A stretch of DNA of 42,626 bases from an uncultured Chlorobiaceae bacterium (lineage in GTDB: Bacteria; Bacteroidota; Chlorobiia; Chlorobiales; Chlorobiaceae). Each line of letters starts with the position of its first letter. Positions within the stretch are counted from its first letter, which is position 1. The stretch is from contig CAITSZ010000014.1 in the NCBI GenBank assembly GCA_903895195.1, positions 1 through 42,626 on the forward strand, in the 5' to 3' direction. The position numbers were made by a program, and so were the translations under genes. The notes below the pieces were generated by a model that was given only the letters and a program-made list of their open reading frames with translations, made no database searches and was not told the DNA's origin. This document shows positions 3,433 through 21,839 of the stretch, piece by piece.

Positions 3433-3773
3433 AACTCCGTCAGTCCAGCTTGTTTGATCCCCCTTTTATTTCTGATCGGCATAGCGGAGAATGTTCTTTA
3501 ATGTATGCTGCCGCAGAAATCCAGTAGCAATATACTTCTGCTTGAACGCTTATTTCTATCAGGATCTCCCCTCAATCCTCACCACCGTCATTTCGCCTGC
3601 CCAATAGGAAATCGCCTGCGTAATCCAAAGCCAATAATATATTAGTCCTATAAGCCCTATTTCCCTTTCTTCTTCATTTATGCAGAAAAAAAAGTTATTG
3701 CTATTAAAACGCGGTTTTTGGCTCATGATTTGATTGATAATTGTTTTAAAACATGGAAATCAATGGAGTGTAT
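3433..3773. other. Intergenic region with 9-bp repeat units
   Basis: About 340 bases between the rqcH start and the Nif11-like gene. The only clear structure is a short run of 9-bp units (TCCTATAAG, CCCTATTTC) at about 3646-3663, which recurs at two other places in the window. No ORF or RNA gene is evident. Confidence 0.5.
3637..3663. repeat. 9-bp tandem repeat, copy 1
   Basis: Units ATATATTAG, TCCTATAAG and CCCTATTTC in register with a 9-bp period. The same unit family (consensus close to YCCYATAAG) occurs at 26553-26588 and 34811-34855, always between genes. Confidence 0.6.
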
Positions 3774-4004
3774 ATGTCCAGAGATGGGGTAGGGAAATTT
3801 TTACAAAGAATGAAGATTGACGAAGCCTTCAGGGATGCGGTTATAAGGATTGGCGACAGGGACGCAAGAATAGCGTTCATAAATCGCAATGGGTTTGATT
3901 GTACGCTGGATGAAATCCTGCAGTTTCCTGAAGAGTTGGCTAAAGAGGAGAGCCCCGACACCAAGAAATCGATAGACAATCAGCACTCAAAAGATTCAAT
4001 ATAA
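3774..4004 (+). CDS. Nif11-like small protein (possible leader peptide)
   Basis: 76 residues from the ATG at 3774. An in-frame ATG at 3753 would add seven residues, but GGAG at 3765-3768 lies five bases before 3774, and Nif11-type proteins usually begin directly with Met-Ser. The pattern VGKFLQRMKID...AFRDAVIR...ARIAFINRNGFDCTLDEI matches the Nif11 domain: helix, charged linker, then an x-x-x-GFD-x-T-x-x-E-(L/I) segment. Nif11 domains occur as leader regions of ribosomally made peptides (nitrile-hydratase-like leader families) and near nitrogen-fixation genes. There is no obvious glycine-rich core; the tail is hydrophilic and charged. No maturase gene is nearby, so the role is unknown. A hairpin follows at 4053. 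Confidence 0.7.
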   Translation: MSRDGVGKFLQRMKIDEAFRDAVIRIGDRDARIAFINRNGFDCTLDEILQFPEELAKEESPDTKKSIDNQHSKDSI

Positions 4005-4233: not shown

Positions 4234-4308
4234 TCTCTTATTTCGTGAGGTAAACCGTCACTCACCCTTATAAAGACGGTATTGATAGATCAAACACTGG
4301 AGACCATC

Positions 4309-4515
4309 ATGGCAGTAGAAAAAACAATCGGCTCGTCAAGCCTCGTAGAGGTTATTGACCGTATCCTTGATAAGGGTGTCGTTGTTGACGCATGGGTAAG
4401 AGTATCATTAGTAGGAATCGAACTTCTTGCTATCGAAGCAAGGGTAGTAGTAGCCTCTGTTGAGACCTACCTGAAATATGCTGAAGCAATCGGCCTGACT
4501 GCAAAAGCAGCTTAA
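4309..4515 (+). CDS. gvpA: Gas vesicle major structural protein GvpA, copy 1
   Basis: 68 residues, the typical GvpA length. The start is the ATG at 4309, with GGAG at 4299-4302; a longer in-frame extension to a non-ATG codon at 4282 is not supported. GvpA is the small hydrophobic protein that forms the ribs of the gas-permeable, water-excluding shell. Family features are clear: [32 protein letters not shown] (helix, beta-turn-beta) followed by the second helix, ending AIGLTAKAA. It is the first gene after the sigma-54 promoter and has an identical twin 50 bases downstream. Confidence 0.97.
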
Positions 4516-4537: not shown

Positions 4538-4565
4538 TTATTAAAACCAAACACTGGAGACCATC

Positions 4566-4772
4566 ATGGCAGTAGAAAAAACAATCGGCTCGTCAAGCCT
4601 CGTAGAGGTTATTGACCGTATCCTTGATAAGGGTGTCGTAGTTGACGCATGGGTAAGAGTATCATTAGTAGGAATCGAACTTCTTGCTATCGAAGCAAGG
4701 GTAGTAGTAGCCTCTGTTGAGACCTACCTGAAATATGCTGAAGCAATCGGCTTGACCGCAAAAGCAGCATAA
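4566..4772 (+). CDS. gvpA: Gas vesicle major structural protein GvpA, copy 2
   Basis: 68 residues, identical in protein sequence to copy 1 and differing only by four silent bases. It carries its own copy of the GGAGACCATC leader before the ATG at 4566. Two tandem gvpA genes raise the dosage of the dominant shell protein, as in several cyanobacteria. The next gene begins 159 bases later, a gap with only a weak 6-bp hairpin (GAAGAG/CTCTTC at 4863-4880), so read-through into the helical protein genes is possible. Confidence 0.97.
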
Positions 4773-5531: not shown

Positions 5532-5571
5532 ATATTGATTTTGTACCACCTAACGTAAAATGGAGACAACA

Positions 5572-6741
5572 ATGGGATTATCTAATGAAATGAAAAGCTT
5601 AAGTGAAGAAATGCTTTCTTCGTTTAAAAAACGCGTACAGGATAATGAAGAGTTGGTTGTAAATGTTGGAAAAAAACTGCAAGGGTATCGTAATGAACAG
5701 AAAAACACTGCGAAACAGTTGAATGCAAATGCAGCAGCACTTAAAAATGATCTGGCAGCTGGTGAAAAAGGGCGTTTGAGCACATATAATAAATTAATGT
5801 CCTCCATACAGAAAGACATTACAAGTATTGAGCAGGATGTTAAAAGTTCTAAGTCATCAGCAAATGCGTTGATCAAAGACTTTTCTAAAGCTCGTAAAGT
5901 TATGAGCCGCGATCTTGACAGATTCTTTTCAGAAGAGAATAAGTCTCGCGCTGAAACTGAACAATCAAGAATGGCAGATTATGAGGTATTTATCGGCAGA
6001 ATAAGCGATGAAGTCTCAAGTATTTTCAATTATACAAATGAGATGCTCGAAAAGTTTGCAAGTGAACATAAAGAGATGTCCGCAGATTTGAGAAAAGAGC
6101 TGGATGATGCCACAAATGAAAGATTTAAATATACTCATTCATTACTTAAAAGCATTCAGGGCAGAATTGCCGAAATAAGTAATGAGAATCTCACAGCTGC
6201 ACGCAAACTGAAATCAGATTTAAACCATGGCGAGGCAGAAAGGCTTAAAGAGTACAACGCTTTATTTGACAGGATCAGCAGTGAAGTAACTGAGTTAAGA
6301 AAATCAACATCCAGTTTGCTTGATAATTATTCAAAAGACAGGTCTCAGGGTAGAGAGCATTGGAACAAAATGCAGGAAGATATTGCAGCAATAAGGGGTG
6401 GAGATAAAAAAGCCGGCCAAAAAAAAGTTGAAAAAATAGTCGAAAAGATTGAGGTCAAGGTTCAACCTGTTGCAGTTGCCGTTCCAGAGTTACCGGTTGT
6501 TGTTGAAAAAGCGCCTGTTTTGGTTGTTCCGACTCCGAAAATCAGCGAAGAGAGCCGTTTAGAGGATAAAATCCTTCATTACATCAATAATCACCCTCAA
6601 GGTGTTAAAGTTTCAGATATGGAAGAACCATTGCATGAAACCAGAATGAAAATAGGTTTTGCAGCTAAATGTCTTTTGGATGCAGGAAAAGTCTCAAAAA
6701 TTGAAAACCTGTACTATCCCATAAAGAAAACATTTTTCTAA
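5572..6741 (+). CDS. Helical-repeat protein with winged-helix-like C-terminus, GvpC-type candidate
   Basis: 389 residues from the ATG at 5572, preferred over 5560 because GGAG at 5562-5565 sits six bases upstream, just as in gvpA. Residues about 1-280 are helical with four imperfect units built on the pattern L-x-x-(D/E)L-x-x-x-E-x-x-R-x-x-x-Y-x-x-(L/F)-x-x-x-I; units start near residues 60, 117, 174 and 215. A Pro/Val-rich linker (about 295-325) leads to a C-terminal segment of about 60 residues (LEDKILHYINNHPQGVKVSD...) that looks like a small winged helix. Four amphipathic repeats next to gvpA suggest a GvpC-like coat protein. The C-terminal domain would be unusual for GvpC. A hairpin terminator follows. 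Confidence 0.65.
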   Translation: MGLSNEMKSLSEEMLSSFKKRVQDNEELVVNVGKKLQGYRNEQKNTAKQLNANAAALKNDLAAGEKGRLSTYNKLMSSIQKDITSIEQDVKSSKSSANALIKDFSKARKVMSRDLDRFFSEENKSRAETEQSRMADYEVFIGRISDEVSSIFNYTNEMLEKFASEHKEMSADLRKELDDATNERFKYTHSLLKSIQGRIAEISNENLTAARKLKSDLNHGEAERLKEYNALFDRISSEVTELRKSTSSLLDNYSKDRSQGREHWNKMQEDIAAIRGGDKKAGQKKVEKIVEKIEVKVQPVAVAVPELPVVVEKAPVLVVPTPKISEESRLEDKILHYINNHPQGVKVSDMEEPLHETRMKIGFAAKCLLDAGKVSKIENLYYPIKKTFF

Positions 6742-6857: not shown

Positions 6858-7784
6858 ATGCGCGCTCAGGGATATGATAATGAGATGAATACTGTGCTTG
6901 AGCCAAAGCCCATGCCGAATTTCGTCGAAACCGACTACATCAGGGATATAACCAATCGAGGTCTTACCTATATAAAGGCAGGATTTCCTGTTCATTTCAG
7001 AGGTCCGTCCGGAACTGGAAAGACAACCGTAGCGTTGCATTTAGCCAGCAAAATCGGCCGACCGGTTGTTATTATACACGGTGATTCAGAATACAAAACC
7101 TCAGATCTCATAGGAAGCGAGCAAGGGTACAAATATAGACGTCTGGATGATAACTTCATTCACTCAGTCCACAAGTATGAAGAGGATATGACAAAGCAAT
7201 GGGTCAACAATCGCCTGACCGTTGCAATTAAGAAAGGGTTTACCCTGGTCTATGACGAGTTTACCCGCTCGCGCCCCGAAGCAAATAATATTTTGCTCCC
7301 TATCCTTCAGGAAAAGATGTTAAGTACCTCTTCATCAAATGAAGAAGAGTACTATATGAAGGTTCATCCCGAGTTCAGGGCAATATTTACTTCAAATCCT
7401 GAAGAATATGCAGGTGTAAACCGTACTCAGGATGCCCTTCGCGATAGAATGGTTACCATGGATCTTGATTATTTTGATTACGAGACAGAATTGATGATTA
7501 CCCATGCGAAATCCGGGATGTCACTTAAGGATGCTGAAAAAATTGTGAAAATTGTCAGAGGCTTGCGTGAATCCGGTAAAACTGAGTTCGATCCTACTAT
7601 TCGTGGCTCTATTATGATTGCTAAAACCCTCCATGTGCTTCATGCAAAACCCGACAAGAAGAACGAGATGTTTAAAAAAGTCTGTCAGGATATTTTAACA
7701 TCCGAAACCAGCCGGGTGGGCTCAAAAACTAATCAGGAAAAAGTAAGGGGTATTGTAACAGAGCTGATTGATATGCACGCTTAG
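6858..7784 (+). CDS. gvpN: Gas vesicle protein GvpN, AAA+ ATPase
   Basis: 308 residues from 6858, or 299 from the ATG at 6885. The shorter form (MNTVLEPKPMPNFVET) matches the usual start of the family better, so the start is uncertain. Walker A is GPSGTGKT (49-56) and Walker B is TLVYDE (129-134), followed by the MoxR-type region TSNPEEYAGVNRTQDALRDRM. GvpN is an AAA+ ATPase needed for gas vesicles to enlarge from small bicones. An AAGGAGG at 6815-6821 has no ATG, GTG or TTG at a suitable distance. Confidence 0.95.
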   Translation: MRAQGYDNEMNTVLEPKPMPNFVETDYIRDITNRGLTYIKAGFPVHFRGPSGTGKTTVALHLASKIGRPVVIIHGDSEYKTSDLIGSEQGYKYRRLDDNFIHSVHKYEEDMTKQWVNNRLTVAIKKGFTLVYDEFTRSRPEANNILLPILQEKMLSTSSSNEEEYYMKVHPEFRAIFTSNPEEYAGVNRTQDALRDRMVTMDLDYFDYETELMITHAKSGMSLKDAEKIVKIVRGLRESGKTEFDPTIRGSIMIAKTLHVLHAKPDKKNEMFKKVCQDILTSETSRVGSKTNQEKVRGIVTELIDMHA

Positions 7785-8137: not shown

Positions 8138-8437
8138 ATGGCTGAATTAAAACACTCTGTTAATGCAACAGGCCTTGCCGATATACTTGAAAGAGTTCTT
8201 GATAAAGGCATTGTAATAGCCGGAGATATAAAAATACAGATTGCAGATATTGATTTATTGACCATAAAAATCAGGCTTTTGGTCGCTTCTGTTGATAAAG
8301 CCATGGAGATGGGAATCAACTGGTGGCAGGAAGACCCTTATCTTTCAACAAAAGCAAAAGATAAAGAACAGCATTTATTACAGGAAGAGTTGCAGTTGCG
8401 TATAGAAAAGCTCGAAGCTATGAATAAGACAACATAA
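8138..8437 (+). CDS. gvpJ: Gas vesicle protein GvpJ (minor GvpA paralogue)
   Basis: 99 residues. The GvpA-type core (LADILERVLDKGIVIAGDIKIQIADIDLLTIKIRLLVASVDKA) is followed by the GvpJ-specific GINWWQEDPYLS and a helical C-terminal extension of about 30 residues. It closely follows the layout of Bacillus megaterium GvpJ. GvpJ is a minor shell-related protein required in small amounts, thought to act in nucleation or at the tips. It lies 14 bases after the small helical gene and 11 before the Hsp20-like gene. Confidence 0.93.
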   Translation: MAELKHSVNATGLADILERVLDKGIVIAGDIKIQIADIDLLTIKIRLLVASVDKAMEMGINWWQEDPYLSTKAKDKEQHLLQEELQLRIEKLEAMNKTT

Positions 8438-8448
8438 AATCATCCGCC

Positions 8449-8967
8449 ATGAATAACGACAATGATAAAAAAAACCAGGGCGAATCTGAATTTGATTTTT
8501 TAGGTTTGGGAGGTCTGTTTAAAGGACTGGATAAACTGGTAGATCTTGCGGGTAAGCTTGAACAGACTGGGGCTTTAAATCGCGAAGGCGAAATAAATCT
8601 GGATCATTTGAAAAAAGGGATGAAGGGTGTTTATGGCTTTACGATTAAATCAGCTGTTGGCGGAGCTCCTAAAGTAGAAACGTTTGGTAATATTATAAAA
8701 ACCCCTCAAGGCCCTAAAGTCAACGAAGAGCGAGAGCCTATTACTGATGTATTTGATGAGCAGGATGAAGTTGTAATTATAGCAGAAATGCCTGGTATTG
8801 AAGAGGCGGATATTGTTGTAGATATAAATGACGATATTCTTGAAATATCGACCAGAAACGCTAAAAAAAGCTATAGGAAGGAACTCCTCCTTCCATTCAA
8901 ATCAGAAAAAAATATAGTTCAACAAAAATATATAAACGGTATTCTTGAAATAAGAATCAAAAAATAA
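8449..8967 (+). CDS. Hsp20-type small heat-shock protein, GvpH-like
   Basis: 172 residues. An N-terminal gas-vesicle-type region has repeated Gly/Leu (FDFLGLGGLFKGLDKLVDLAGKLEQ) and GVYGFTIKS. An alpha-crystallin domain follows from about residue 95 (REPITDVFDEQDEVVIIAEMPGIEEADI...LEISTRN) and ends NGILEIRIKK. Small heat-shock proteins hold unfolded clients; in halophilic archaea GvpH is a related protein that interacts with gas-vesicle proteins. The N-terminal GLGGLFKGL region resembles those gas-vesicle Hsp20 proteins. It lies four bases before the ArsA-like gene. Confidence 0.85.
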   Translation: MNNDNDKKNQGESEFDFLGLGGLFKGLDKLVDLAGKLEQTGALNREGEINLDHLKKGMKGVYGFTIKSAVGGAPKVETFGNIIKTPQGPKVNEEREPITDVFDEQDEVVIIAEMPGIEEADIVVDINDDILEISTRNAKKSYRKELLLPFKSEKNIVQQKYINGILEIRIKK

Positions 8968-8971
8968 ACCA

Positions 8972-9910
8972 ATGCCGCTGACAGGATTAGAGAGCAAAGA
9001 GCTTCGAATGATCATATTCGGCGGTAAAGGTGGTGTTGGAAAAACCAGTTGTTCTCTTGCTTGTGCTATCGGTTTAGCTGAAAAATTCAAAACATTAGTT
9101 ATTTCAACTGACCCTGCACATTCCATTTCTGATAGTCTTTGTCAGGAGATAGGGTTCAGACTCCAGCCTGTGCATAAGGTTAAGAACCTTACCGCTATTG
9201 AGATATCTGCAGACAAGGCCTTTAAGCAGTTTAAAAAAGAGCACGAAAAAGAACTGATTAAGCTTTTTGATACCTCCACGAATTTCGATGATGAAGACAT
9301 TCAGCAAATGATGAGTCTTTCAATACCAGGTATTGATGAAGTCATGAGTTTTAAGACCATTATTGACCTGATGGAGGAAAATAATTACGAAAAATATGTT
9401 GTTGATACGGCCCCGACCGGTCATGCACTTCGGCTCTTGTCATCTCCCGTACTCTTGGATGAGTGGATTAAGATGGCCGCGAAAATGAGATGGAAATATC
9501 GATATATGATTGAATCCTTCTCGGGCGAATACAAGGAAGACGAGGCTGATGTCATGCTTCTCCATCTAAAAAAAACTGTTAAACGTATTGCCGCAATCTT
9601 GAGCAACAGTCGTAAAAGCGAATTCATCCCTGTCTGCATTCCCGAAGACATGGCAATTATGGAAACAGAACGATTGCTCAAAGAGCTCCAGCATTTTAAG
9701 ATTACATCACGTCAAATGATTCTGAATAATGTCATGCAGTCAGACGAGTCAGGATTTTGCAGGCAAAGAAAAGCTGCTCAATCAAAATATCTCGACAAGG
9801 TCTCCGAGCTCTTTAAACAAATGCGGGTGGTAATTGTCCCTGTTTTTCCTGAAGAAATTAAGGGTGTGCCGGCATTGGAAAAGTTAAAAGATGTGCTTTT
9901 CGCACGGTAG
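8972..9910 (+). CDS. ArsA/Get3-family ATPase
   Basis: 312 residues, a single-domain ArsA-type ATPase. P-loop GGKGGVGKT (17-25), switch I-like STDPAHSISD (45-54) and switch II-like DTAPTGHALRLL (145-156) are all present. At the C-terminus, FCRQRKAAQSKYL corresponds to the Get3 region C-x-x-C-x-x-R-x-x-x-Q-x-x-YL, but the first cysteine of the zinc-binding pair is replaced by serine. Get3 proteins shield hydrophobic membrane proteins; ArsA powers arsenite export. No ars genes are nearby, so a chaperone role for hydrophobic Gvp proteins is the better guess. It lies between the Hsp20 and CDC48-like genes. Confidence 0.85.
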   Translation: MPLTGLESKELRMIIFGGKGGVGKTSCSLACAIGLAEKFKTLVISTDPAHSISDSLCQEIGFRLQPVHKVKNLTAIEISADKAFKQFKKEHEKELIKLFDTSTNFDDEDIQQMMSLSIPGIDEVMSFKTIIDLMEENNYEKYVVDTAPTGHALRLLSSPVLLDEWIKMAAKMRWKYRYMIESFSGEYKEDEADVMLLHLKKTVKRIAAILSNSRKSEFIPVCIPEDMAIMETERLLKELQHFKITSRQMILNNVMQSDESGFCRQRKAAQSKYLDKVSELFKQMRVVIVPVFPEEIKGVPALEKLKDVLFAR

Positions 9911-9931: not shown

Positions 9932-12082
9932 ATGAGTAATGATGAATTAGTGTTGAAGGTAAAAGAAGCGATTGTCAAGGATGTCGGACGTGCAATAGCA
10001 AGAATTGATCCGCTTGACATGACTCGCTGTGGATTAGAGTCGGGCGATATCGTTCTGATTCAAGGCAAGCGCTCAACACCTGTTAAAATACTTCCAGCCT
10101 ACCCCGATGACAGAAACAAAGGGATTATACAGATTGACGGTATAACCAGAGAAAATGCCTCTGTTGGTATTGACGAAAAGATTGTCATCAATAAAACCAC
10201 CTGTAAGCAGGCCGCCAAAATAAAGCTGAAACCGGTAACCAGATCGAGTTCTCTTATAAAGGCTGACGATGCAAAATACATAGGCTCGCTTATTAATGGG
10301 TTGCCAGTCACAAAAGGTGATAAAATAAAAGCCACTCTTTTTGGATCCGGCTCAATATACTATACAATTACAGCGACAACGCCAGATGGAGTTGTGCTCA
10401 TACATCCTGATACCGCTGTTCAACTCGAACTTACAAAAGAGAATGAGGTCAAATCCAGCAAGATAACGTACGAAGATATAGGTGGGCTTGGTAATCAGGT
10501 TCAGCGAATACGCGAAATGATAGAACTACCCCTCAAATACCCTGAAATATTTGAGAGACTCGGTGTCGAACCCCCCAAAGGCGTTTTTCTGTATGGCCCT
10601 CCCGGTACCGGTAAAACCCTGATTGTCAGAGCGGTAGCTCAGGAAACGGATGCTTACTTTATCAATATTTCAGGGCCCGAAATAATGGGCAAGTATTACG
10701 GAGAGAGTGAAGCACGCGTACGTAATATCTTTGCTGAAGCACAGGCACACGCTCCATCAATCATATTTATAGATGAAATCGATGCCATCGCACCCAAACG
10801 TGAAGATATGGGAGGCGAAAAGCAGGTTGAAAAACGAGTTGTAGCGCAGCTGTTATCATTGATGGATGGATTGGAGTCGAGAGGTAAGGTCATTGTAATA
10901 GGTGCTACAAATATTCCCAATTCCATTGATCCTGCACTGCGCAGACCAGGCCGCTTTGACAGGGAGATATCAATTTCAATCCCCGACAAAACAGGCCGTC
11001 TTGAAATACTTCATATCCATACAAGAGGTATTCCTTTGTCAGAAGATGTAGATATGCTTAAGATCGCCGACATTACCCATGGTTTTGTCGGAGCAGATCT
11101 TGAAGCTCTTGCTCGTGAAGCTGCCATGACAGCACTACGTAAAATCCTGCCGCAGATAAATTATGAACTTTCAGAGATTCCTTATGAACTCTTGATGCAG
11201 CTTGAAGTCACCATGGATAACTTTCTGGATGCAATGAAGGAGGTTGAGCCTTCTGCAATAAGAGAGGTGTTTGTGGAGGTTCCCGATGTGAAATGGGAAG
11301 ATGTAGGAGGACTTGAAGAGATTAAACAGGCACTGAAAGAGACAGTTCAATGGCCTTTGAAATATGCAGAACTCTTCAAAAAAACAGATACGAAGCCACC
11401 CAAAGGAATAATTCTATATGGAAAGCCGGGTACAGGCAAAACCTACCTGGCCAAAGCGCTCGCCAGTGAAAGCGGCGTGAATTTTATTTCTGTAAAAGGG
11501 CCTCAGATATTGAGTCGTTTCATAGGAGAATCTGAAAAAGGTGTCCGTGAACTTTTCAGGTTAGCAAAACAATCTGCTCCCACAATCCTTTTTCTCGATG
11601 AAATCGATAGCCTCACCCCCAAAAGAAGGAATGATGGAACAGAGTCAGGGGTCATAGAAAGGGTAATCAGTCAATTCCTGACTGAGATGGATGGTATTGA
11701 GGAGCTCAAGGGCGTTACTGTGCTGGCAGCAACTAACAGGATTGATATCATAGATCCGGCGCTCTTAAGGTCCGGCCGATTTGACCTCATGTTCGAGGTT
11801 CCCTTGCCAGATGTAAAAACACGGGAAAAGATATTTTCAATTCATACCCGAAATATGCCGCTTGGCAAAGATGTAAACCTGACTGAATTAGCTGCAGCAA
11901 TCGATAATATGACAGGTGCAGATATACAGTTTATTTGTCAAAAGGCTAAAATGTGTGCCATACGCGAAATCATAGATAAAAAAGAAAATAAAGAACCCGA
12001 AGAAATAGCAGTCCTTAAAAAACACTTTGAGCAGGCAATACAAACAGTACAACTTCAAAACAGTAATATTCATAATGACTGA
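9932..12082 (+). CDS. CDC48/VAT-like double AAA+ ATPase
   Basis: 716 residues. An N-terminal double-psi-barrel-type domain (about 5-170) precedes D1, with Walker A GPPGTGKT (222-229) and Walker B IIFIDEID (277-284), and D2, with Walker A GKPGTGKT (497-504) and Walker [10 protein letters not shown] (551-559). D2 has lysine in place of the second proline of GPPGTGKT. Arginine-finger regions ([20 protein letters not shown]) are present. CDC48-type hexamers unfold or extract proteins from complexes. AAA ATPases of this type occur in some bacterial and archaeal gas-vesicle clusters. AAGGA before the ATG at 9932 is one of the few clear binding sites here. Confidence 0.9.
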
Positions 12083-12085
12083 GAT

Positions 12086-13105
12086 ATGACTCATAAAGGC
12101 ATATATATATACGGAATTGTGAAAAATGATTGTGTGACAGCTATTAAGAGTGCGTTGAGCGAGTCTGGGGTCTACACAATAGAGTACGAAGATATTGCAG
12201 CTGTCGTCTCAGATACGAAGCTTGAGAAAATTGAATATATGAATAGGGAGGAGCTTGCCCGCTTACTTATTGATCATCAGCAAAAAATAGAAAAACTGAT
12301 GAGTTTAGGCTGTTCAAATATTATCCCGATGCAACTTGGTACTATAGTCAGTTCAGGCAATGATGTAATGAAAATTCTGGAAAATGGCAAAAAAATATTT
12401 TCAGATACTTTTAATAAAATAAACGGTGTTGAGGAAATTGATATTGCTGCTGTTTGGAGCAATTTCGGTGAGTTTATTAAGAAGGTGTCAGAAAATCCGC
12501 AGATAATAAAAATGAAAGCGGCTATTGCTGATAAAGGTAGTTGTAATGAAGCAGACAGTATCAGTATCGGTAAACTTATAAAAGAAAAAATTGATCAGAA
12601 AAACAGTAAAGTCAATCTTGATGTTCATAATTCATTAATGCCATTTTGTATCGCTTCAAAAAAGCATGAAACAATGAATGATGAAATGCCTGTTAATTAT
12701 GCATTTCTTGTGAAAAAAGAAAACCATTATTTATTTATAAATACAATAGATGAACTCGATAGTATATATGTAAACAAACTGAATTTTAAAATTGTTGGCC
12801 CGCTTCCATGCTACAGTTTTTATACCGCAGAGTGTAAGGCAATAAGGAAAGCAGATATTGATAAAGCAAAGAGTGTGCTTGGTATTGATTTATCAAGTCA
12901 AGAGTATGATCTTAAAAAAGCATATCGATTGAAAGCATCACTTACGCATCCTGATAAACAAAGTAATAATGTTGATGATGAAGGCAGTAGTTTTACTGCT
13001 GCCAATAACGCATATAAGGTGCTGCTTGATTATGGGAGTATTATAAAACAAGCATCATCAATTGAATTGAAAGATCCCTTTTATCTTGTTAAAATAAAGA
13101 ATTGA
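12086..13105 (+). CDS. GvpF/L-family protein fused to a C-terminal J-domain
   Basis: 339 residues. Residues 1-250 are a GvpF/L protein: the N-terminal strand GIYIYGIV, the conserved SNIIPMQLGTIV region (78-88), the YAFLVKK strand and the closing FKIVGPLPCYSFY. Residues about 262-316 are a J-domain: LGIDLSSQEYDLKKAYRLKASL, then the diagnostic His-Pro-Asp (288-290), and AANNAYKVLLDYG. J-domains stimulate Hsp70 ATPase, so the fusion could bring DnaK to the gas-vesicle assembly site. A short C-terminal tail follows. The gene starts three bases after the CDC48-like stop codon, so expression is probably coupled. It is about 80 residues longer than its four paralogues. Confidence 0.9.
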   Translation: MTHKGIYIYGIVKNDCVTAIKSALSESGVYTIEYEDIAAVVSDTKLEKIEYMNREELARLLIDHQQKIEKLMSLGCSNIIPMQLGTIVSSGNDVMKILENGKKIFSDTFNKINGVEEIDIAAVWSNFGEFIKKVSENPQIIKMKAAIADKGSCNEADSISIGKLIKEKIDQKNSKVNLDVHNSLMPFCIASKKHETMNDEMPVNYAFLVKKENHYLFINTIDELDSIYVNKLNFKIVGPLPCYSFYTAECKAIRKADIDKAKSVLGIDLSSQEYDLKKAYRLKASLTHPDKQSNNVDDEGSSFTAANNAYKVLLDYGSIIKQASSIELKDPFYLVKIKN

Positions 13106-13106
13106 T

Positions 13107-13880
13107 ATGCAAAAGGACGGAAAATATGTTTACTGCATAATTGCAACAAGCTATGAGTGCAATTTTGGACCTATAGGTATAGGTGGAAGGGGCGACTTGG
13201 TCAGTTCTATCGGCTTTGAAGGGTTAAGTATGGTTGTCAGCGACCATCCGTTAAATCATTTTGTATTGAATCCTGAAAACATTCTCGCACATCAGAAAGT
13301 GATAGAGACTGTTATGGAGCAGTTTAACAGTGTTATTCCGGTTAGATTCGGCACCGTGGCTGCCACACCTGATGAAATTCGAAATTTGCTTGACAGGCGA
13401 TATAGTGAGTTATCAGAACTTCTTCATCGATTTGAAAACAAGGTGGAATATAACGTCAAAGGTTCATGGCGTAATATGAGCGCAGTATACAAGGAGATAG
13501 ATAATGAACATAAAGCACTGAAAGAACTTAGATGTACCATTGATACCATGGAGGATAAAGACAAAAAAAATATGCTCATCATGGAAGCCGGTCATCTCAT
13601 AGAAGATGCTGTACAAAAAAAGAAGGAATTGGAGGCGGAAGATATAGTCTCAGCTTTTCGCAAGACAGTGGTTGCATATAAACACAATAAAACCACAGGT
13701 GAGTCGATGTTTATGAATACAGCGATTCTTATAAACAAAGGCAGAGAAGTTGAGTTTGATAATATTATGAACTCTGTTGGCGATAGATACAAAGAGAGAA
13801 GTGATTTTTTCTATTCAGGCCCTTTGCCGATATTTAATTTTATTGATCTTAGAATTCTTCCGGAAAAATGGGAACTATGA
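13107..13880 (+). CDS. Gas vesicle protein, GvpF/L family, paralogue 2
   Basis: 257 residues with the complete GvpF/L layout: KYVYCIIATS at the N-terminus, an AHQKVIETVM helix leading into SVIPVRFGTVAA (the most conserved segment), a helical middle, MFMNTAILI, and the ending YSGPLPIFNFIDL. GvpF/L proteins are minor components that bind GvpA and other Gvp proteins during nucleation. It starts one base after the stop of the J-domain fusion gene. Whether it is GvpF or GvpL proper cannot be decided from sequence alone. Confidence 0.92.
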   Translation: MQKDGKYVYCIIATSYECNFGPIGIGGRGDLVSSIGFEGLSMVVSDHPLNHFVLNPENILAHQKVIETVMEQFNSVIPVRFGTVAATPDEIRNLLDRRYSELSELLHRFENKVEYNVKGSWRNMSAVYKEIDNEHKALKELRCTIDTMEDKDKKNMLIMEAGHLIEDAVQKKKELEAEDIVSAFRKTVVAYKHNKTTGESMFMNTAILINKGREVEFDNIMNSVGDRYKERSDFFYSGPLPIFNFIDLRILPEKWEL

Positions 13881-13901: not shown

Positions 13902-14678
13902 ATGAATGCTGATACAGTAAAAGAAGGAAAATATATCTATGGGATTATACGTAATTCCGATCCTGTCGATTTTGGACTGATTGGTATAGGAAATCGCCAT
14001 GATAAAGTTTATGGTGTTGTGTACAAAGATATATGTGCAGTGGTAAGTTCTTCGCCCGTAATACAATATGAGGCCCGACGAATAAATATGATTTCTCATC
14101 AAAAAGTGCTCGAAGAAGTCATGATAAAATTTAATGTCTTGCCGGTAAGATTCTCTACAATATCACCACATGACAACGATGAAGCTATAATTCGTATTCT
14201 GACAGAGGATTATACAAGGCTCGACGATCTACTCAGTAAAATGAAGGGAAAAAAAGAACTTGGACTTAAGGTCGTTGCAGAAGAAAGTAAAATCTATGAA
14301 AATATCATCCAAAAATATGACAGCATAAGAACACTAAGAGATAAACTGATAAATCAGCCCTCTGATAAAATTCATTACCAAAGGGTAAAAATAGGTGAAA
14401 TGGTAGCTGAGGCGCTTAAGAATGAAATAGAGTGCTATAAGAAACAGATACTCGACATACTGAACCCGATTGCTGAAGATGTCAAAATAACCGATAACTA
14501 TGGGAATTTGATGATACTTAACGCGGCTTTTCTTATTAAGGAGATAAAAGAATCACTCTTTGATTCCGCTGTTAATGATCTTGATAAAAAATATGGTAAT
14601 ATTATGACATTTAAATATGTCGGCACGCTTCCACCATATAATTTTGTCAATCTTTCTATTAATACTAAAGGAGGCTGA
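13902..14678 (+). CDS. Gas vesicle protein, GvpF/L family, paralogue 3
   Basis: 258 residues, closest in layout to the preceding copy: KYIYGIIRNSDPVDFGLIGIG parallels CNFGPIGIG there. The pair is probably an old tandem duplication. The conserved core is ISHQKVLEEVMIKFNVLPVRFSTI and the closing strand is FKYVGTLPPYNFVNL. Its 3' end holds the GGAGG that serves gvpG, and the gvpG start follows the stop codon by one base. The start follows a run of A residues with no binding site. Confidence 0.92.
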   Translation: MNADTVKEGKYIYGIIRNSDPVDFGLIGIGNRHDKVYGVVYKDICAVVSSSPVIQYEARRINMISHQKVLEEVMIKFNVLPVRFSTISPHDNDEAIIRILTEDYTRLDDLLSKMKGKKELGLKVVAEESKIYENIIQKYDSIRTLRDKLINQPSDKIHYQRVKIGEMVAEALKNEIECYKKQILDILNPIAEDVKITDNYGNLMILNAAFLIKEIKESLFDSAVNDLDKKYGNIMTFKYVGTLPPYNFVNLSINTKGG

Positions 14679-14679
14679 T

Positions 14680-14916
14680 ATTTTTATTTTAGATGACATA
14701 TTATTTGCTCCTATTAACGGTTTGATATTTGTAGCAAAAAAAATCAATGACGTTGTTGAGAAAGAAACGTCCGATGAAGGGACAGTAAAAGAGAGACTTA
14801 TGGCTCTTCAACTAAGATTCGAATTAGATGAAATTAGTGAGGAAGAATATGATAAAGAAGAAGATGACCTTCTTAAGAAGCTTGAAAAAATCCGTTTAGA
14901 TAAGCAGAATCGATAA
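14680..14916 (+). CDS. gvpG: Gas vesicle protein GvpG, probable ATT start codon
   Basis: 78 residues if translation begins at ATT (14680). The family normally begins Met-x-x-LDD-x-L-x-AP, and here ATT-TTT-ATT-TTA-GAT-GAC gives (M)FILDDILFAPINGLIFVAKKI. A strong GGAGG (14670-14674) lies five bases before the ATT. The only in-frame ATG upstream (14617) is deep inside the preceding gene and would add 21 residues unlike GvpG. The rest is typical: a helix, RLMALQLRFELDEISEEEYDKEEDDLLKKLEKI, acidic and helical. GvpG is a small accessory protein that interacts with GvpF/L in assembly. ATT starts are rare (infC is the known case), so expression may be low. Confidence 0.85.
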   Translation: MFILDDILFAPINGLIFVAKKINDVVEKETSDEGTVKERLMALQLRFELDEISEEEYDKEEDDLLKKLEKIRLDKQNR

Positions 14917-14949: not shown

Positions 14950-15222
14950 ATGAGTAAAATAATTGATGTAAGAAATGCTGTTATAGGCTTTCTTAAAGAA
15001 AACATAAAAACAACTGAAGTTACTGTTATAAAAGTTGAAAAAGGACAGGAAACATGGAAAACCGTGGCTGAAGTATATGAAGATGATTCATTTTTGAAAT
15101 CAATGAATCTACCTCCGAAAAAAATCAGATTATTCTATAATGTTGTGCTTGATTTAGATATGGATGTGATCTCATTCAACAGGCTGTCGACATACGATGA
15201 CTCAGAAAACGAAAACAACTAA
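14950..15222 (+). CDS. GvpO-like gas vesicle protein
   Basis: 90 residues. The central and C-terminal part matches the GvpO pattern: ETWKTVAEVYEDDSFL, then IRLFYNVVLDLDMDVISFNRLSTYDD (tryptophan, E-V-x-E, a Y-x-V-x-L-D strand and a final aromatic/arginine strand). The N-terminal region is shorter than in many GvpO proteins. GvpO is required for gas vesicle formation in haloarchaea, where it affects gvpA expression; the bacterial role is less clear. A good AGGAGA site precedes the ATG. The 3' end overlaps the next gene by 26 bases. Confidence 0.75.
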   Translation: MSKIIDVRNAVIGFLKENIKTTEVTVIKVEKGQETWKTVAEVYEDDSFLKSMNLPPKKIRLFYNVVLDLDMDVISFNRLSTYDDSENENN

Positions 15223-16033
15223 CTGTTATAATACTGTGGATATAGATGACAAGCAGCTCATATATGTTTATTGCGTAACATATATCGATCCTAAAGAAAT
15301 AAACTTATTTCTCAAAGAAAAGTTATATGTAATAGAAATTGATGGATTGTTTGTAATCGTTAAAAATGTATATGCAAATGAATATTCTAAAGAAAATATA
15401 AAAGTAAATATATCAGACGAATTATGGCTTGATACTCATGTTAGGGGCCATATGTCAGTTATTACGCAAATTATGGCAGTTAATGCAGTTGTTCCTTTTA
15501 ATTTCGGAACAATATATACTACCAAAGTTAGTCTTATTGAGTTTATTCAAAAATATCACAATGAGATAATAAAGTCATTGCTCTATGTGGAAAATAAAGA
15601 AGAATGGTCAGTTAAAGTATACTGTGATAAAAAAGATATAGTCGCCAATATGAGCCGGTTAAGTGAAAAAGTAGCCGCTATCAATGAAGAGATAAACAGC
15701 ACTACTCCAGGAAAGGCATATATTCTCGGTAAGAAAAAAATTGATATTATCGATAAAGAGATCATTGTAATATATAATTCTTATTCGAAATTGATTTTTA
15801 GCGCCTTTAATGAATTATCTGAAGAATTTAAGCTGAGCACGCTTTTAAGTTCCGAGGTATCAGGCAGAAGTGACGATATGATTCTTAATGCCACTTTTTT
15901 TATAAAAAAAGAAAATATAGATAACTTCTTTGTCGTGTCAGATATAATGCTTTCTGAATATGATAATATCGGGTTAGATATCGAACTCACCGGGCCTTGG
16001 CCGCCATATTCATTTATAAATATATCTAATTGA
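15197..16033 (+). CDS. Gas vesicle protein, GvpF/L family, paralogue 4
   Basis: 278 residues. The GvpF/L core is recognisable: LIYVYCVTY near the N-terminus, MAVNAVVPFNFGTIYTT (conserved V-P-F-x-F-G-T), a helical middle, MILNATFFIKK and the closing LTGPWPPYSFINI. About 20 extra residues precede the first strand. The start at 15197 overlaps the GvpO-like gene by 26 bases, so the true start could be slightly later, but no better in-frame ATG lies before the conserved region. Very AT-rich codon use, as in its neighbours. Confidence 0.9.
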   Translation: MTQKTKTTNCYNTVDIDDKQLIYVYCVTYIDPKEINLFLKEKLYVIEIDGLFVIVKNVYANEYSKENIKVNISDELWLDTHVRGHMSVITQIMAVNAVVPFNFGTIYTTKVSLIEFIQKYHNEIIKSLLYVENKEEWSVKVYCDKKDIVANMSRLSEKVAAINEEINSTTPGKAYILGKKKIDIIDKEIIVIYNSYSKLIFSAFNELSEEFKLSTLLSSEVSGRSDDMILNATFFIKKENIDNFFVVSDIMLSEYDNIGLDIELTGPWPPYSFINISN

Positions 16034-16247: not shown

Positions 16248-16994
16248 ATGCCATTTGTTGTTTATTCTATTATCGATAATACGGTTTGTGTTGTTGATTT
16301 AGCTCATATTAGTAACGAACTTTCACATAAGTTTAATACGAATCTCGAATTCGCTGAATATAAGAACTTATCGGCACTTGTATCATTTGTTAAGAAAAAA
16401 GATACTGGAACAACCAGGGATGAAGTTTTATGTTATGCCTCAATTATTGATGCAATGGCTGCTATGTGTCCGGTATTGCCAATGCGTTTTGGTTCAGTTT
16501 TAGAATCATATAACGACGTCCTCGAGTATTTGTCGCGTAATGCAGATGCCTTCATCCGTTCATTGGCGCTTATATCAAATAAGGACGAATATTCTGTCAA
16601 GGTATTATTTTCACAATCTTATCATGAGGATCCTGTCGGGAACACCTCCTGTAATGATCCTCAACCACTGCCTGATATACTGAATAGTACCAACCTTGCA
16701 AGAGAGTATTTAAGTAATAAATACAAAGATTATTTATCTGACAAAAAAAAGCATCAATATACTGAGCAGGTTAAGTCTTATTTTATGTCTCAAGCCCTTG
16801 CAATAACTGATTATATTGATTTTAATAAGTCACTATCCCCAGCTTTTATTATAGACGCAGTACTTTTAATTGACAAGTCAAAAAAAAGCAAACTTTTGGA
16901 TATTGTTGTAAACCTGCGAGCCATGTTTCCGATGCATAATGTCATGCTCACTGGTCCTTGGCCAGCCTATAACTTTACAAAAACCAAGATATAG
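16248..16994 (+). CDS. Gas vesicle protein, GvpF/L family, paralogue 5
   Basis: 248 residues, the most divergent and shortest of the five. The N-terminal strand is PFVVYSIID, the conserved segment is AAMCPVLPMRFGSVL, and the closing strand is VMLTGPWPAYNF. The GPWP ending is shared with paralogue 4 (GPWPPY), so these two form a subgroup distinct from paralogues 1-3, which end G-P/T-LP. The grouping suggests two different GvpF/L roles, one set on either side of gvpG/gvpO. Confidence 0.9.
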   Translation: MPFVVYSIIDNTVCVVDLAHISNELSHKFNTNLEFAEYKNLSALVSFVKKKDTGTTRDEVLCYASIIDAMAAMCPVLPMRFGSVLESYNDVLEYLSRNADAFIRSLALISNKDEYSVKVLFSQSYHEDPVGNTSCNDPQPLPDILNSTNLAREYLSNKYKDYLSDKKKHQYTEQVKSYFMSQALAITDYIDFNKSLSPAFIIDAVLLIDKSKKSKLLDIVVNLRAMFPMHNVMLTGPWPAYNFTKTKI

Positions 16995-17000
16995 AAAGCT

Positions 17001-17345
17001 ATGATTGACGACAAGATACTGTTCCGTGCCGGTTCGGCTGATGAGATAATCGAAGAACTTGAAAAGATCAAGCCTGGCATTCAAGGAAGGATTATTGCTA
17101 CTCCAGACAACGTGGATTCCGGTCTTGCAAAGCTCGTACTGACCCTTATCGAATTGATACGTAAGTTAATGGAAAAACAGGCTATGCGAAGAATAGAGGG
17201 GGGTTCGCTTACAGACGACCAAATCGAAAACCTTGGCGAAACGCTTATGAAGCTGGAAAACAAAATGGAAGAGCTCAAAAAAATATTCAATCTTACTGAC
17301 AAAGACCTTAACCTCAATCTTGGCCCACTTGGCGATCTGCTATAA
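17001..17345 (+). CDS. gvpK: Gas vesicle protein GvpK
   Basis: 114 residues. Typical GvpK pattern: VDSGLAKLVLTLIELIRKLMEKQAMRRIEGGSLTDDQIENLGETLMKLENKMEELKKIF. It is mainly helical with the conserved RRIEGGSL-D-x-Q-x-x-x-LG motif. GvpK is a minor protein essential for gas vesicle formation in tested hosts. It is the last gene of the locus and ends only 15 bases before the end of the convergent histidine kinase gene; no terminator hairpin fits in that gap. Confidence 0.95.
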   Translation: MIDDKILFRAGSADEIIEELEKIKPGIQGRIIATPDNVDSGLAKLVLTLIELIRKLMEKQAMRRIEGGSLTDDQIENLGETLMKLENKMEELKKIFNLTDKDLNLNLGPLGDLL

Positions 17346-17360
17346 TTTCTGCCGTCAATA

Positions 17361-20300
17361 TTAAGGGATTACTTCCCTGAGCTTCCTGATGTTCGGAAGC
17401 GTAATTATAACATTTGTTCCCGCTCCAGGTTTGCTCGATATCTTAATATCTCCATTCATTTCGTTAATTATTCCATAGCTTATCGAAAGACCAAGCCCGG
17501 TTCCTTTTCCTGAATCTTTGGTTGTGAAAAATGGATGCATAATATATTCAATATCTTTTTCACTGATACCTATTCCATTGTCTTCTATTGTTATAGCAAC
17601 GACATCTTCCTTATAAAAGGATCTGATTATTATTTTCATGTCAAATTCATTATTGCTCAGCAGTTTCTTCTCTTCAAGTGCGTCAATAGAGTTTTTAATG
17701 AGATTTGAAATAACCTGCTCAAATTTATAGATATTTCCTGTTACAGAAATTCTTTCCCGTTCTGGTTTGAAATCAAGTATTATAGATCTGTGTTTACATT
17801 GTTCCGAAAACATTAAAAGTGCGTTTCTTATTCCTTTATTGATATTTACGACTGATGATATATAATTGTTATCTGTACTTGAAAAAGACCTGATATTATC
17901 GATAATTGTCTGTACCCTTATTATGTTCTCAAAAATCTTTTCTGATTTATCTTTTATCTCCTTTTCACAACTCCATTTGTTTTTAGATGCCTCAAATAAT
18001 ATTTTGTCAACAGTTAGCCCGATATTATTAATTGGTTGGTAGATTTCATGAGCTATGCCAGATGCCATTTCTCCAAGACTGATTAGTCTCTTCGCATGAA
18101 ATAGTTCACTTTCAATTATCTTGCGTTGTGAAATGTCCCTGATTATCATCATATATGATGAAGGTGCTCCATTATAATCCTGGATAAGTGCTGCACTGAT
18201 TTCGGCTGAATAAAGCGTATTATTCTTCTTTTTCAGCAGTATTTCTTTGTTCTGAATTAAGCCTTCACGATAGGTTACATCAAAAATCTCATTAATTATT
18301 TTAATGTCATTTTGATAAACAATTGACGTAAATGGTTTACCTATAACATCCGCTTTATTACTCGCTCCAAATATCTCAAGTCCAATATCTGATACGCTGC
18401 TGATTATTCCGTCCAGATTTGTTGTTATAATACTGTCAGGTGATGCGGCAATAAGCGTTTGGTATTGTTTATCAAACTGCCTTCTGGCTTTTTCTGCCTC
18501 ATTATTATCATTAGTTTTTGTTATGAATACCGCTAATGAGTCTATTTTTTCATATTCACCATAAACCGGATATGCAGATATTTGATAGACATTATCATTT
18601 CCAGCACTATTAATGCCTTGGTTTTCATTTCCTCTGTCTTTAAAATGCACTGGTTCCCCGGTTTCATAAAGATGCCTAAACTTATCTTTTCGCTCTTCAA
18701 ACAGCTGCCGTGAAAAAATGTTATTAATATCCTCTCCCTTTAGATTGGCTGTTTTATCTTTTGAATACTCTTGATTGAAATTTTCATTAGCCTCAATTAT
18801 AATTCCATCAGGGCCTATTGCACAGACAGCTTCTTCGCTTGAATTTAACAGATTATTGAGATTGGTTGTATTTATAAGATGATTTGTATTAATATTCTTA
18901 TACTCAGATATATCAATTGAAATACCCATATATCGTTTTAAGCTTCCCGAATCATCTTTTACTGGAAATCCCTGTGTCATTAATCGTCGTCTTGCTCCAT
19001 CAGAGTCACCCACATTGTAAACAACATTAAACGTTTTGCCCTTTTCTATAGCATCTTTAATTACTTTATCCGTGTGTTCCTTGTCACTTGGCATAATTGA
19101 ATCTCGCCATAACTCATAAGAAGGAATGCCCAAATGAAGATCCTGCCCGTAAAGCATACGTATCTCGTCATCCCATATCATTCCTCCATTACTCAGATTC
19201 CACTCCCAGTTACCTGTTTTAAAGGTTATCATAGGAGAGAGTACCATAACAAAATATCCCTTCTGGTGACTATAAACCGTAATATCAAACCATTTGTTCA
19301 GAGTACTGAAATAAAATTCAAACTGTTCAGCAACACCGCTGAGGGCTATTTTTCCTACTCGTTCGATAAATTCAGTATTAGTTTGAAGAATATCCGGAAT
19401 CACATCCGATATTTTTTGCCCTTCAATATATTCCCACCCTGTCAGTTTCTTGAAATTCCGATTTACAACTTCGTACACCAAATCAACAGCAATTTCATTT
19501 TCAAAAAGAACACGACAGTAAGCAAACCCGTTCTCCATATTATTGAACAGATTCCGGTAGTGTACCCTTTTCTCGAACTCCTCTTTTTCGGTTTGATTCA
19601 GTGTTGTAAAGTCAACCGAGAACATTAACAGTTTCGTTATTTCACCATCTTTATTCGGTATAGGGTATATAGTATGGCGTAATATCTGTTCTTCACGTTC
19701 TTCATCGTATGTAACTTTCTCGCCGGTAAATAATACCTCGTCTATCTTTCTTCTACTCTCTCTCACAAGTTCAGGAGAAAGATAAGTGTAGTAATTTGAA
19801 CCGATTATGCTCTCTTTTTTTCCAATGCTCTCCTTGAAAGCTTCATTGCCAACCAGAATGGTCCCGGACCGATCAACAAGAAATGTTATTTCTGGAAACG
19901 CATCAAACAGGGGACGTAGCGATTGATCATCATCATCCTTGTCCAGAATTGCCATAAGCAGCTCTTCAACTGAATGGGCTTCAGCCATCTGGAGTATTCG
20001 AAGACGGAATGCAGTAAGTGACTCGTAGCGTTTTCGTTCTGTTATGTCATGTATAATCGCATAGAGTATCTCTTTTCCTTCAATAGTGATAGTATTGCTG
20101 AACACCTCTACATCGCGAAGAGAGCCGTCAATCTTTTTATGCCGAAATACAAACTGGTTTTGTTCCGAAGTCTTTGCCTTCAGCATATTAATCTTCACTT
20201 CCGCATTTGTAACAGTTGTGATCTGCTGAATGGACATTGTGCGCATCTCTTCTATAGACCATCCATAAAAGGTCGAAGCTGCTTGATTGGCGTCAATGAT

Positions 20301-21839
20301 CTTTCCACTCTCAGGATCAATAAGAAGCATCATTGCTGAATGATTTTCGAACAATGCTCTGAACCTCTCTTCACTCTTTGTCAGCGCCTCTTCTGCATGC
20401 CTTTTGTCGGTAATATCAGTAATAATCGAATAGAAAACCTCTTTGGTATTTACAACAAAAGCATTGCTGACTACTTCTACATCACTTATGCTTCCATTTG
20501 CTTTCCGGTGGCGAAAGATAAATCGGTTCTGTTTCGACCTTCTGACTTTATCAATGTTTTCATGTTTTTCTTCTGCAGAATCCATGTTGATTTGATGAAT
20601 ATTCATCCGCCTGAGCTCATCAACAGACCACCCGTAAAATTCAGCAGCAGCTCTATTGGCATCTATGATATTCAATGTTTCGGGGTCTACCAGCAGCATG
20701 ATTGAAGAGTGGCCTTCAAATAGCTTTCTTAGTCGCTCCTCGCTTTCCATCAGTGATGCTTCCGACTCTTTTTTAGCCTCACGGGTTCGTAACATTGTGA
20801 TGCCATAGGTAAGGTTTTCAGCCAGTGCAGTGATGAGCTTTGTTTCCTCAGAATTAAAAGCGTAAGGCTCATCGGAATAGATGGTTAAAGCGCCGAATAC
20901 CTCATTGTTTGATTTCAGCGGTAAACTTAGAATGGAAGCATACCCTCGCTTTACAGCCTCTTTTTGCCATGGATCCATAAGCGGATCATTGACGATATCA
21001 TGTGAGGAGGTGGGCTGGCCTGTACGGATTGCCGTTCCTACTGGTCCTTGTCCAATCTCAATCTCAGCCCAGGAGATTCTGGACATACTGATGTATCCTT
21101 CCTCAAAACCTGCATGAGCCATTTGGCGTATACTCTTTGCCTCATCATGTTCAGCATAGCCTACCCAAGCCATACGGTAGCCACCGGTTTCAACCATGAT
21201 GCTGCAAATCTTATGCAGCAACTCTATCTCATCAGAAGTTTGAATCAGAGCCTCATTGCAACGGCTTGTTGCTAACAGAGCGCGACTCATCCTTTTGATA
21301 TCAGACTCCGCCAGCTTGCGCTCAGTGATGTCATCAAACATTGCCACTGAGTACCCGGGTTCTGGCCTGTAAATCGTTATATCAAACCATTTGTTCAATG
21401 CTACAAGAAAAACTTCAAACTGATCTGGAATCCCAGTTTCAACTACCCGTCTATGTTTATCGATAAAATCAGGATTTGTCTCAGCGAGTCCGGGCAGAAC
21501 TTCGGTAATGCGGCGTCCGACGACGTCTTTCAGGCCGGTCAGTCTCTCATAGCCCTTGTTAACATCCTCATGAATAAAATCAACCCCGTTATCCTTTTCG
21601 ATAATCATTCGGCAGCAGGCGTAACCGTTCCGCATATAATCAACGAGGTCGAAATGCCTTGTTGTATTCCCGATCATCGAAGTTGCAGGCTTCTGAAGTT
21701 CCATATGGCTCTTATCTTCTATCGAGTCTGAGTAGTCTATCGCCATTCCTGTTTGATTTTTTTTACGGCTCGATTCAAGGGGGTCTGTGCAAATTTCTTG
21801 AAATTCAGTCACTCTAAGGGTCCCAGGCCTACTCTTCAC
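17361..21839 (-). CDS. Multi-PAS/GAF sensor histidine kinase
   Basis: 1492 residues, soluble (no membrane segment seen). Approximate order: PAS (62-175), GAF (195-350), PAS (370-490), PAS (495-615), PAS (650-760), PAS (775-880), PAS with PAC (890-1000), PAS (1005-1115), PAS (1130-1245), HisKA, HATPase. The phospho-acceptor is H1264 in GIAHEIYQPINN, with tyrosine where HEI-(N/L)-QP is usual. ATP-binding boxes are DNGIGIS (about 1420), FFTT and GKGTGLGLS. The C-terminus resembles NtrB-type kinases, matching the NtrC-type partner just upstream, with which it overlaps by 11 bases. The GTG start is uncertain: a GTG at codon 10 and an ATG at codon 32 are alternatives. The many input domains imply several signals, perhaps redox or light. 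Confidence 0.88.
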   Translation of the reverse strand: MKSRPGTLRVTEFQEICTDPLESSRKKNQTGMAIDYSDSIEDKSHMELQKPATSMIGNTTRHFDLVDYMRNGYACCRMIIEKDNGVDFIHEDVNKGYERLTGLKDVVGRRITEVLPGLAETNPDFIDKHRRVVETGIPDQFEVFLVALNKWFDITIYRPEPGYSVAMFDDITERKLAESDIKRMSRALLATSRCNEALIQTSDEIELLHKICSIMVETGGYRMAWVGYAEHDEAKSIRQMAHAGFEEGYISMSRISWAEIEIGQGPVGTAIRTGQPTSSHDIVNDPLMDPWQKEAVKRGYASILSLPLKSNNEVFGALTIYSDEPYAFNSEETKLITALAENLTYGITMLRTREAKKESEASLMESEERLRKLFEGHSSIMLLVDPETLNIIDANRAAAEFYGWSVDELRRMNIHQINMDSAEEKHENIDKVRRSKQNRFIFRHRKANGSISDVEVVSNAFVVNTKEVFYSIITDITDKRHAEEALTKSEERFRALFENHSAMMLLIDPESGKIIDANQAASTFYGWSIEEMRTMSIQQITTVTNAEVKINMLKAKTSEQNQFVFRHKKIDGSLRDVEVFSNTITIEGKEILYAIIHDITERKRYESLTAFRLRILQMAEAHSVEELLMAILDKDDDDQSLRPLFDAFPEITFLVDRSGTILVGNEAFKESIGKKESIIGSNYYTYLSPELVRESRRKIDEVLFTGEKVTYDEEREEQILRHTIYPIPNKDGEITKLLMFSVDFTTLNQTEKEEFEKRVHYRNLFNNMENGFAYCRVLFENEIAVDLVYEVVNRNFKKLTGWEYIEGQKISDVIPDILQTNTEFIERVGKIALSGVAEQFEFYFSTLNKWFDITVYSHQKGYFVMVLSPMITFKTGNWEWNLSNGGMIWDDEIRMLYGQDLHLGIPSYELWRDSIMPSDKEHTDKVIKDAIEKGKTFNVVYNVGDSDGARRRLMTQGFPVKDDSGSLKRYMGISIDISEYKNINTNHLINTTNLNNLLNSSEEAVCAIGPDGIIIEANENFNQEYSKDKTANLKGEDINNIFSRQLFEERKDKFRHLYETGEPVHFKDRGNENQGINSAGNDNVYQISAYPVYGEYEKIDSLAVFITKTNDNNEAEKARRQFDKQYQTLIAASPDSIITTNLDGIISSVSDIGLEIFGASNKADVIGKPFTSIVYQNDIKIINEIFDVTYREGLIQNKEILLKKKNNTLYSAEISAALIQDYNGAPSSYMMIIRDISQRKIIESELFHAKRLISLGEMASGIAHEIYQPINNIGLTVDKILFEASKNKWSCEKEIKDKSEKIFENIIRVQTIIDNIRSFSSTDNNYISSVVNINKGIRNALLMFSEQCKHRSIILDFKPERERISVTGNIYKFEQVISNLIKNSIDALEEKKLLSNNEFDMKIIIRSFYKEDVVAITIEDNGIGISEKDIEYIMHPFFTTKDSGKGTGLGLSISYGIINEMNGDIKISSKPGAGTNVIITLPNIRKLREVIP

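Follow-up and report, generated by a model that had tools for sequence, protein, structure and literature searches.

How the very hydrophobic shell protein GvpA stays soluble and enters the growing gas-vesicle shell is an open question, and it is touched by a gene cluster of an uncultured Chlorobiaceae bacterium (assembly GCA_903895195.1), in which the first of five GvpF/L genes appears to continue into a J-domain. Is this fusion genuine, how widely is it distributed and could it bring Hsp70 to newly made shell protein? The window, i.e. the whole stretch of DNA that was analysed, comprises 42,626 nucleotides of contig CAITSZ010000014.1.

The original prediction, made from the letters alone, had seen at positions 12869-13034 (residues 262-316 of the fusion) a C-terminal J-domain with an intact His-Pro-Asp motif (HPD, residues 288-290). 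The gene (12086-13105; table 1) is an open frame with an ATG start, in which a GvpL/GvpF domain and a J-domain are joined in frame; the stop of the CDC48 gene lies 3 bases before its start, and the next GvpF gene starts 1 base after its end. The match to PF06386 (173.5 bits, above the cut-off) covers profile positions 1-244 of 245, and that to the DnaJ profile PF00226 (residues 264-315, E=3.8e-9) scores 37.0 bits, the curated cut-off being 27.8. A genome-wide search with PF00226 recovered the same J-domain independently (39.9 bits) and, apart from the fusion, yielded only DnaJ. No other Pfam domain is present in the fusion, i.e. neither a G/F region nor a zinc finger nor beta-barrel client domains; lacking these hallmarks of class A and B proteins (DnaJ and CbpA type), it therefore falls into class C.

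Table 1. Features of the gas-vesicle gene cluster in the window and, in the last row, Hsp70 genes linked to related clusters (with locus prefix).
Feature	Position	Strand	Evidence
Nif11-domain small protein, upstream of gvpA copies	3753-4004		PF07862, 36.6 bits
GvpA copy 1	4297..4512	+	tblastn, identical to sister-genome GvpA over 72 residues
GvpA copy 2	4554..4769	+	tblastn, identical to sister-genome GvpA over 72 residues
Coiled-coil protein, just upstream of GvpN	5560-6741		weak apolipoprotein-like match
GvpN	6858..7784	+	TIGR02640 341.7 bits
GvpA-family (GvpJ-like) protein	8138..8437	+	PF00741 E=5.6e-17
Hsp20-like protein	8449..8967	+	PF00011 E=2.6e-5; NCBIfam NF041800 127 bits, cut-off 140
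ArsA/Get3-family ATPase	8972..9910	+	PF02374 E=9.9e-81
CDC48-family AAA ATPase, directly upstream of fusion	9932..12082	+	NCBIfam TIGR01243 934 bits
GvpF/L-J fusion protein, 339 aa	12086..13105	+	open frame; Pfam; AlphaFold mean pLDDT 91.3
GvpL/GvpF domain, residues 5-246	12098..12823	+	Pfam PF06386 E=1e-50; VIA-align Z 20.1 to 6l5d
J-domain, predicted helices 255-265, 273-287, 299-322	12848..13051	+	PF00226; AlphaFold model; VIA-align
His-Pro-Asp, residues 288-290 (cat cct gat)	12947..12955	+	sequence
C-terminal stretch beyond J-domain, predicted strand 332-338	13079..13102	+	AlphaFold model
GvpF/L paralogue without J-domain	13107..13880	+	PF06386 E=1.1e-56
GvpF/L paralogue without J-domain	13902..14678	+	PF06386 E=1.6e-60
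GvpG, frame overlaps preceding gene, true start probably later	14617..14916	+	PF05120 E=4.2e-20
GvpO-like protein	14950..15222	+	PF05800 E=1.1e-4, 22.6 bits, just below Pfam cut-off 25
GvpF/L paralogue without J-domain	15197..16033	+	PF06386 E=2.1e-43
GvpF/L paralogue without J-domain	16248..16994	+	PF06386 E=1.7e-31
GvpK	17001..17345	+	PF05121 E=2.1e-35
Gas-vesicle-linked Hsp70 genes	L081:10418-12286, L083:12870-14693, L136:8493-10370, L133:8515-10413

An AlphaFold2 model based on 51 fusion sequences (mean pLDDT 91.3) contains a confident three-helix J-domain, with the HPD between helix II (273-287) and helix III (299-322), at the start of a loop that is the weakest region of the model (mean pLDDT 61 over residues 291-300). 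The motif LKKAYRLKASL, proposed earlier as the helix II preceding the HPD, spans residues 276-286 and indeed lies within the predicted helix. By VIA-align, residues 3-250 superpose on Anabaena GvpF (6l5d, Z 20.1) and the GvpF part likewise on Microcystis GvpF (4qsg, Z 19.3), while residues 256-319 fit the DnaK-bound J-domain of DnaJ (5nro_B; Z 7.9, rmsd 2.2 over 61 residues). Foldseek assigned a probability of 1.00 to several J-domains, and in a sequence search of the PDB with the fusion, GvpF entries and J-domain entries were matched separately. The J-domain first read from the letters is thus upheld by profile search, predicted fold and, as set out below, conservation. A tail resembling LVKIK, as at the end of this protein, is also seen at the C-terminus of many relatives.

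The fusion gene is located inside a gas-vesicle gene cluster, surrounded by GvpN, GvpG, GvpK and GvpA-family genes. That Hsp20-like, ArsA/Get3-like and CDC48-like genes accompany the five GvpF/L genes had been noted at the outset and proved correct, all of them being tightly clustered on one strand. An apolipoprotein-annotated gene, comparable to the match seen just upstream of GvpN, likewise occurs in gvp clusters of Prosthecochloris (PMC10158934).

A survey for the same architecture, which had been suggested together with the prediction, revealed a wide distribution. Scanning 84,980 species genomes with the pattern LxF[KR][IC][VI]GPLP, which is located in the GvpF part and favours this GvpF subfamily, matched at least 80 loci, nearly all of which extend into a J-domain, with the J-domain C-terminal to GvpF in all fusion relatives. 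These relatives come from at least 20 bacterial groups of phylum rank, among them Bacteroidota, Omnitrophota, Chloroflexota, Planctomycetota, Elusimicrobiota and Pseudomonadota; the nearest named ones among the matches listed are Chlorobiaceae metagenome-assembled genomes. In the same genus, six genomes, this one included, have a fusion (61 to 48% identical to the present one), and a seventh, G024, has a shortened version with YPD instead of HPD. Among gas-vesicle genomes sampled from single phyla, the fusion was present in five of six (phylum of G063), two of five (G062) and about six of 16 (G065). GvpF matches that are plasmid-borne actinobacterial, cyanobacterial or haloarchaeal stop before the J-domain. 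An apparent GvpF-J-GvpF triple fusion (L071/L166) was dropped, its frame running across a masked stretch of N.

With the window being part of a draft genome, it had to be asked whether the fusion reflects a sequencing or assembly error, or the J-domain a chance resemblance. Nothing in favour of this was found, and E-values far from chance as well as about 80 loci with an equally in-frame fusion, one of them on a complete Octadecabacter arcticus plasmid (where the gene is annotated only as a GvpL/GvpF family protein), make it vanishingly improbable; specifically, a frameshift or assembly artefact is ruled out by intact frames in the same-genus genomes and about 80 further contigs.

Across 88 distinct J sequences, the histidine is found in 87, the proline in all 88 and the aspartate in all 87 aligned at this position, and the basic positions of helix II and the F/A/Y/L positions of helix III are also kept, while most other positions vary. 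The only J-bearing frame without HPD (L047, 7977-9050) reads LLPEN instead and is an orphan gene, with no CDC48 or Hsp20 nearby and a GvpA-like frame as its sole gas-vesicle neighbour in the locus. The YPD-bearing gene of G024 (L182:9058-10975) belongs to a decayed cluster with fragments of CDC48 and GvpK. In a tree of 120 GvpF/L domains, calculated by a quick method with the J columns left out and with some weak branches, all 26 sampled fusions fall into one clade among the GvpF/L paralogues; the fusion label requires 2 changes, one of them being the decayed G024 gene, versus 23.9 with shuffled labels. On sequence comparison, the fusion turns out to be ancient and conserved over many bacterial phyla. 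Within the Chlorobiaceae, where synonymous sites are near saturation, the GvpF part has a pN/pS of 0.25 and the J region a median of 0.42; the latter changes somewhat faster but, judged from these ratios, is under purifying selection.

Neighbours were counted in 61 fusion loci with enough upstream sequence, among the matches listed. GvpN (59 of 61) and Hsp20 (58 of 61) are nearly always present, CDC48 is found in 56 and directly upstream of the fusion in 46, and ArsA occurs in 43. Almost half of these loci (30 of 61) also encode a small DnaJ-type zinc-finger protein with roughly six CxxCxG repeats; five out of five tested score above the cut-off of the Pfam family DnaJ_CXXCXGXG. Such genes lie in L033, L046, L067, L083, L091, L093 and others, sometimes in two or three copies. 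In the present and sister Chlorobiaceae genomes, a search for DnaJ-type zinc fingers gave only that of DnaJ itself above the cut-off.

If the J-domain works with an Hsp70, which one could this be? In the present genome, no dedicated Hsp70 was found: there is one full DnaK, and the other PF00012 matches are short, weak and MreB-sized. The partner here can therefore not be a dedicated Hsp70. In other organisms, which belong to several phyla, Hsp70 genes lie within gas-vesicle clusters (L081/G061, L086/G062, L083, L096/G068 and G179), on a gvpK/gvpL contig with the fusion on another contig (G065), in a part-cluster in which no fusion was seen (G1095) or beside the cluster (G098). In an Hsp70 tree, from which the G179 fragment was left out, the copies of G061, G062, G068, L083, G065 and G1095 make up a clade separate from the housekeeping DnaKs; the G098 gene (L153) groups with housekeeping DnaK and was rejected as a gas-vesicle paralogue. 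In the readable gas-vesicle Hsp70s, the interdomain linker and the segment corresponding to the J-binding site of DnaK are largely kept. An Hsp70 of their own was present in three of 58 scanned fusion loci, so that most fusion clusters are without one, and with too few fusion-less clusters sampled we claim no statistical significance for the association between Hsp70 and fusion. The chances seem evenly balanced that several phyla have an organelle-dedicated Hsp70 system of dispersed DnaJ modules, in which GvpF bears the J-domain, the zinc-finger proteins stand alone and some lineages add an Hsp70 paralogue specific to gas vesicles, alongside Hsp20, ArsA and CDC48, and that the Chlorobiaceae operate a reduced version which borrows the housekeeping DnaK.

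What, then, does the J-domain do? Two studies describe GvpF as binding monomeric GvpA, even its first helix, and propose that it serves as a transient chaperone (PMC9501494, PMC11445434); in one of them, it is the primary partner of new GvpA (PMC11445434). We consider it probable that the fusion acts as a class C J-protein and, during assembly, brings Hsp70 to shell protein held by its GvpF part. The GvpF part would bind a GvpA-family shell protein early, perhaps while the chain leaves the ribosome, and the C-terminal J-domain would dock on DnaK; the HPD would then trigger ATP hydrolysis by DnaK and load Hsp70 onto the hydrophobic shell subunit, which would remain fit for assembly until it is passed on to GvpG, GvpL and GvpN. 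This proposal builds on the fusion itself, its predicted fold, the conservation of the HPD, the single clade, the operon context and the gas-vesicle-linked Hsp70s of some relatives; DnaK binding, ATPase stimulation, the identity of the client and the hand-over step are inferred. The pathway suggested in the original prediction, which would link Hsp70 to the assembly of GvpA, is supported in part, by the J-domain itself, by the chaperone-rich operon and, going further than that prediction, by the Hsp70 genes and DnaJ-type zinc fingers of related clusters; Hsp20, ArsA and CDC48 may share in it. In favour of the proposal, the HPD has disappeared solely from an eroded cluster (G024) and from an orphan gene (L047); counting against it, any of the five GvpF/L paralogues here might be the GvpA binder, an Hsp70 gene is missing from most fusion clusters and the J region changes faster than the GvpF part. 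GvpF lacks a J-domain in well-studied gas-vesicle systems, and the J-domain is therefore not needed for gas vesicles generally.

Hsp70/J systems and AAA unfoldases frequently cooperate in disaggregation, and the position of CDC48 directly upstream of most fusions could thus mean that the J-domain recruits Hsp70, together with CDC48, to withdraw or recycle gas-vesicle protein that is misassembled or has collapsed, rather than to build the organelle. We regard this as unlikely, since the alphaproteobacterial loci L023, L084 and L103 have the fusion without an adjoining CDC48, L177 is a gas-vesicle cluster with CDC48 but no J-domain, and the reported role of GvpF as primary, transient partner of new GvpA (PMC11445434) points to an early step. 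The J-domain might also have lost its Hsp70 function and serve only as a structural or protein–protein interaction module, as some J-like domains are known to work without Hsp70 and the J region finds its top solved-structure match in a J-like protein lacking the HPD, Tim16 (from the Tim14-Tim16 pair). A nearly invariant HPD over otherwise very divergent sequences, however, as well as Hsp70s of a separate clade in several gas-vesicle clusters, make such a loss of function quite improbable.

Seen as a class C J-protein that recruits Hsp70 for assembly, the fusion resembles other class C (type III) members, e.g. HscB and the DNAJC proteins, which likewise combine a single HPD-bearing J-domain with a client-specific domain and whose chain contains neither a DnaJ G/F region nor a zinc finger; here, however, the client domain is GvpF and the J-domain is C-terminal, an architecture absent from the literature searched. 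Cyanobacterial GvpF proteins (6l5d, 4qsg) share the GvpL/GvpF fold but end where the J-domain of the fusion begins. GvpF of Halobacterium and Bacillus megaterium contains the homologous domain and has been proposed as an early GvpA chaperone, and the accessible parts of these reports neither propose an Hsp70 link nor mention a J-domain (PMC9501494, PMC11445434). Clusters with arsA, hsp20 and several gvpL/F copies have been described from Pelodictyon luteolum, Polaribacter irgensii and Geobacter uraniireducens, in a text whose accessible part mentions neither a J-domain nor CDC48 (PMC2963123). J-domain, GvpF and ArsA/Hsp20-containing clusters are thus already known separately, and both domains of such a fusion protein would be visible in domain databases; yet neither the GvpF/L-J fusion and its wide occurrence nor the accompanying zinc-finger proteins and gas-vesicle Hsp70 clade were found in open-licence literature, with mention elsewhere being possible. 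That the fusion has escaped notice is probably due to its absence from the best-studied gas-vesicle systems. A widespread GvpF with a predicted Hsp70 docking site and linked Hsp70 genes provides a hypothesis testable by exchanging one residue (HPD to QPD), and may point to co-expression partners for engineered gas vesicles, which serve as ultrasound contrast agents.

Three minor observations concern the surroundings of these clusters. In L135 (5048-6870) and L176 (12235-14056), the frame of the gas-vesicle Hsp70 is broken at a run of 10 and 9 G, respectively, which may reflect a tract of variable length or an error in sequencing. In a member of the Chloroherpetonaceae (G041, L183:18886-20001), the gas-vesicle cluster is followed about 4 kb downstream by a dnaJ gene. 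In the window, GvpK is directly followed on the minus strand (17361-23253) by frames that by eye resemble a multi-PAS histidine kinase and a sigma-54-type response regulator, possible regulators of the cluster.
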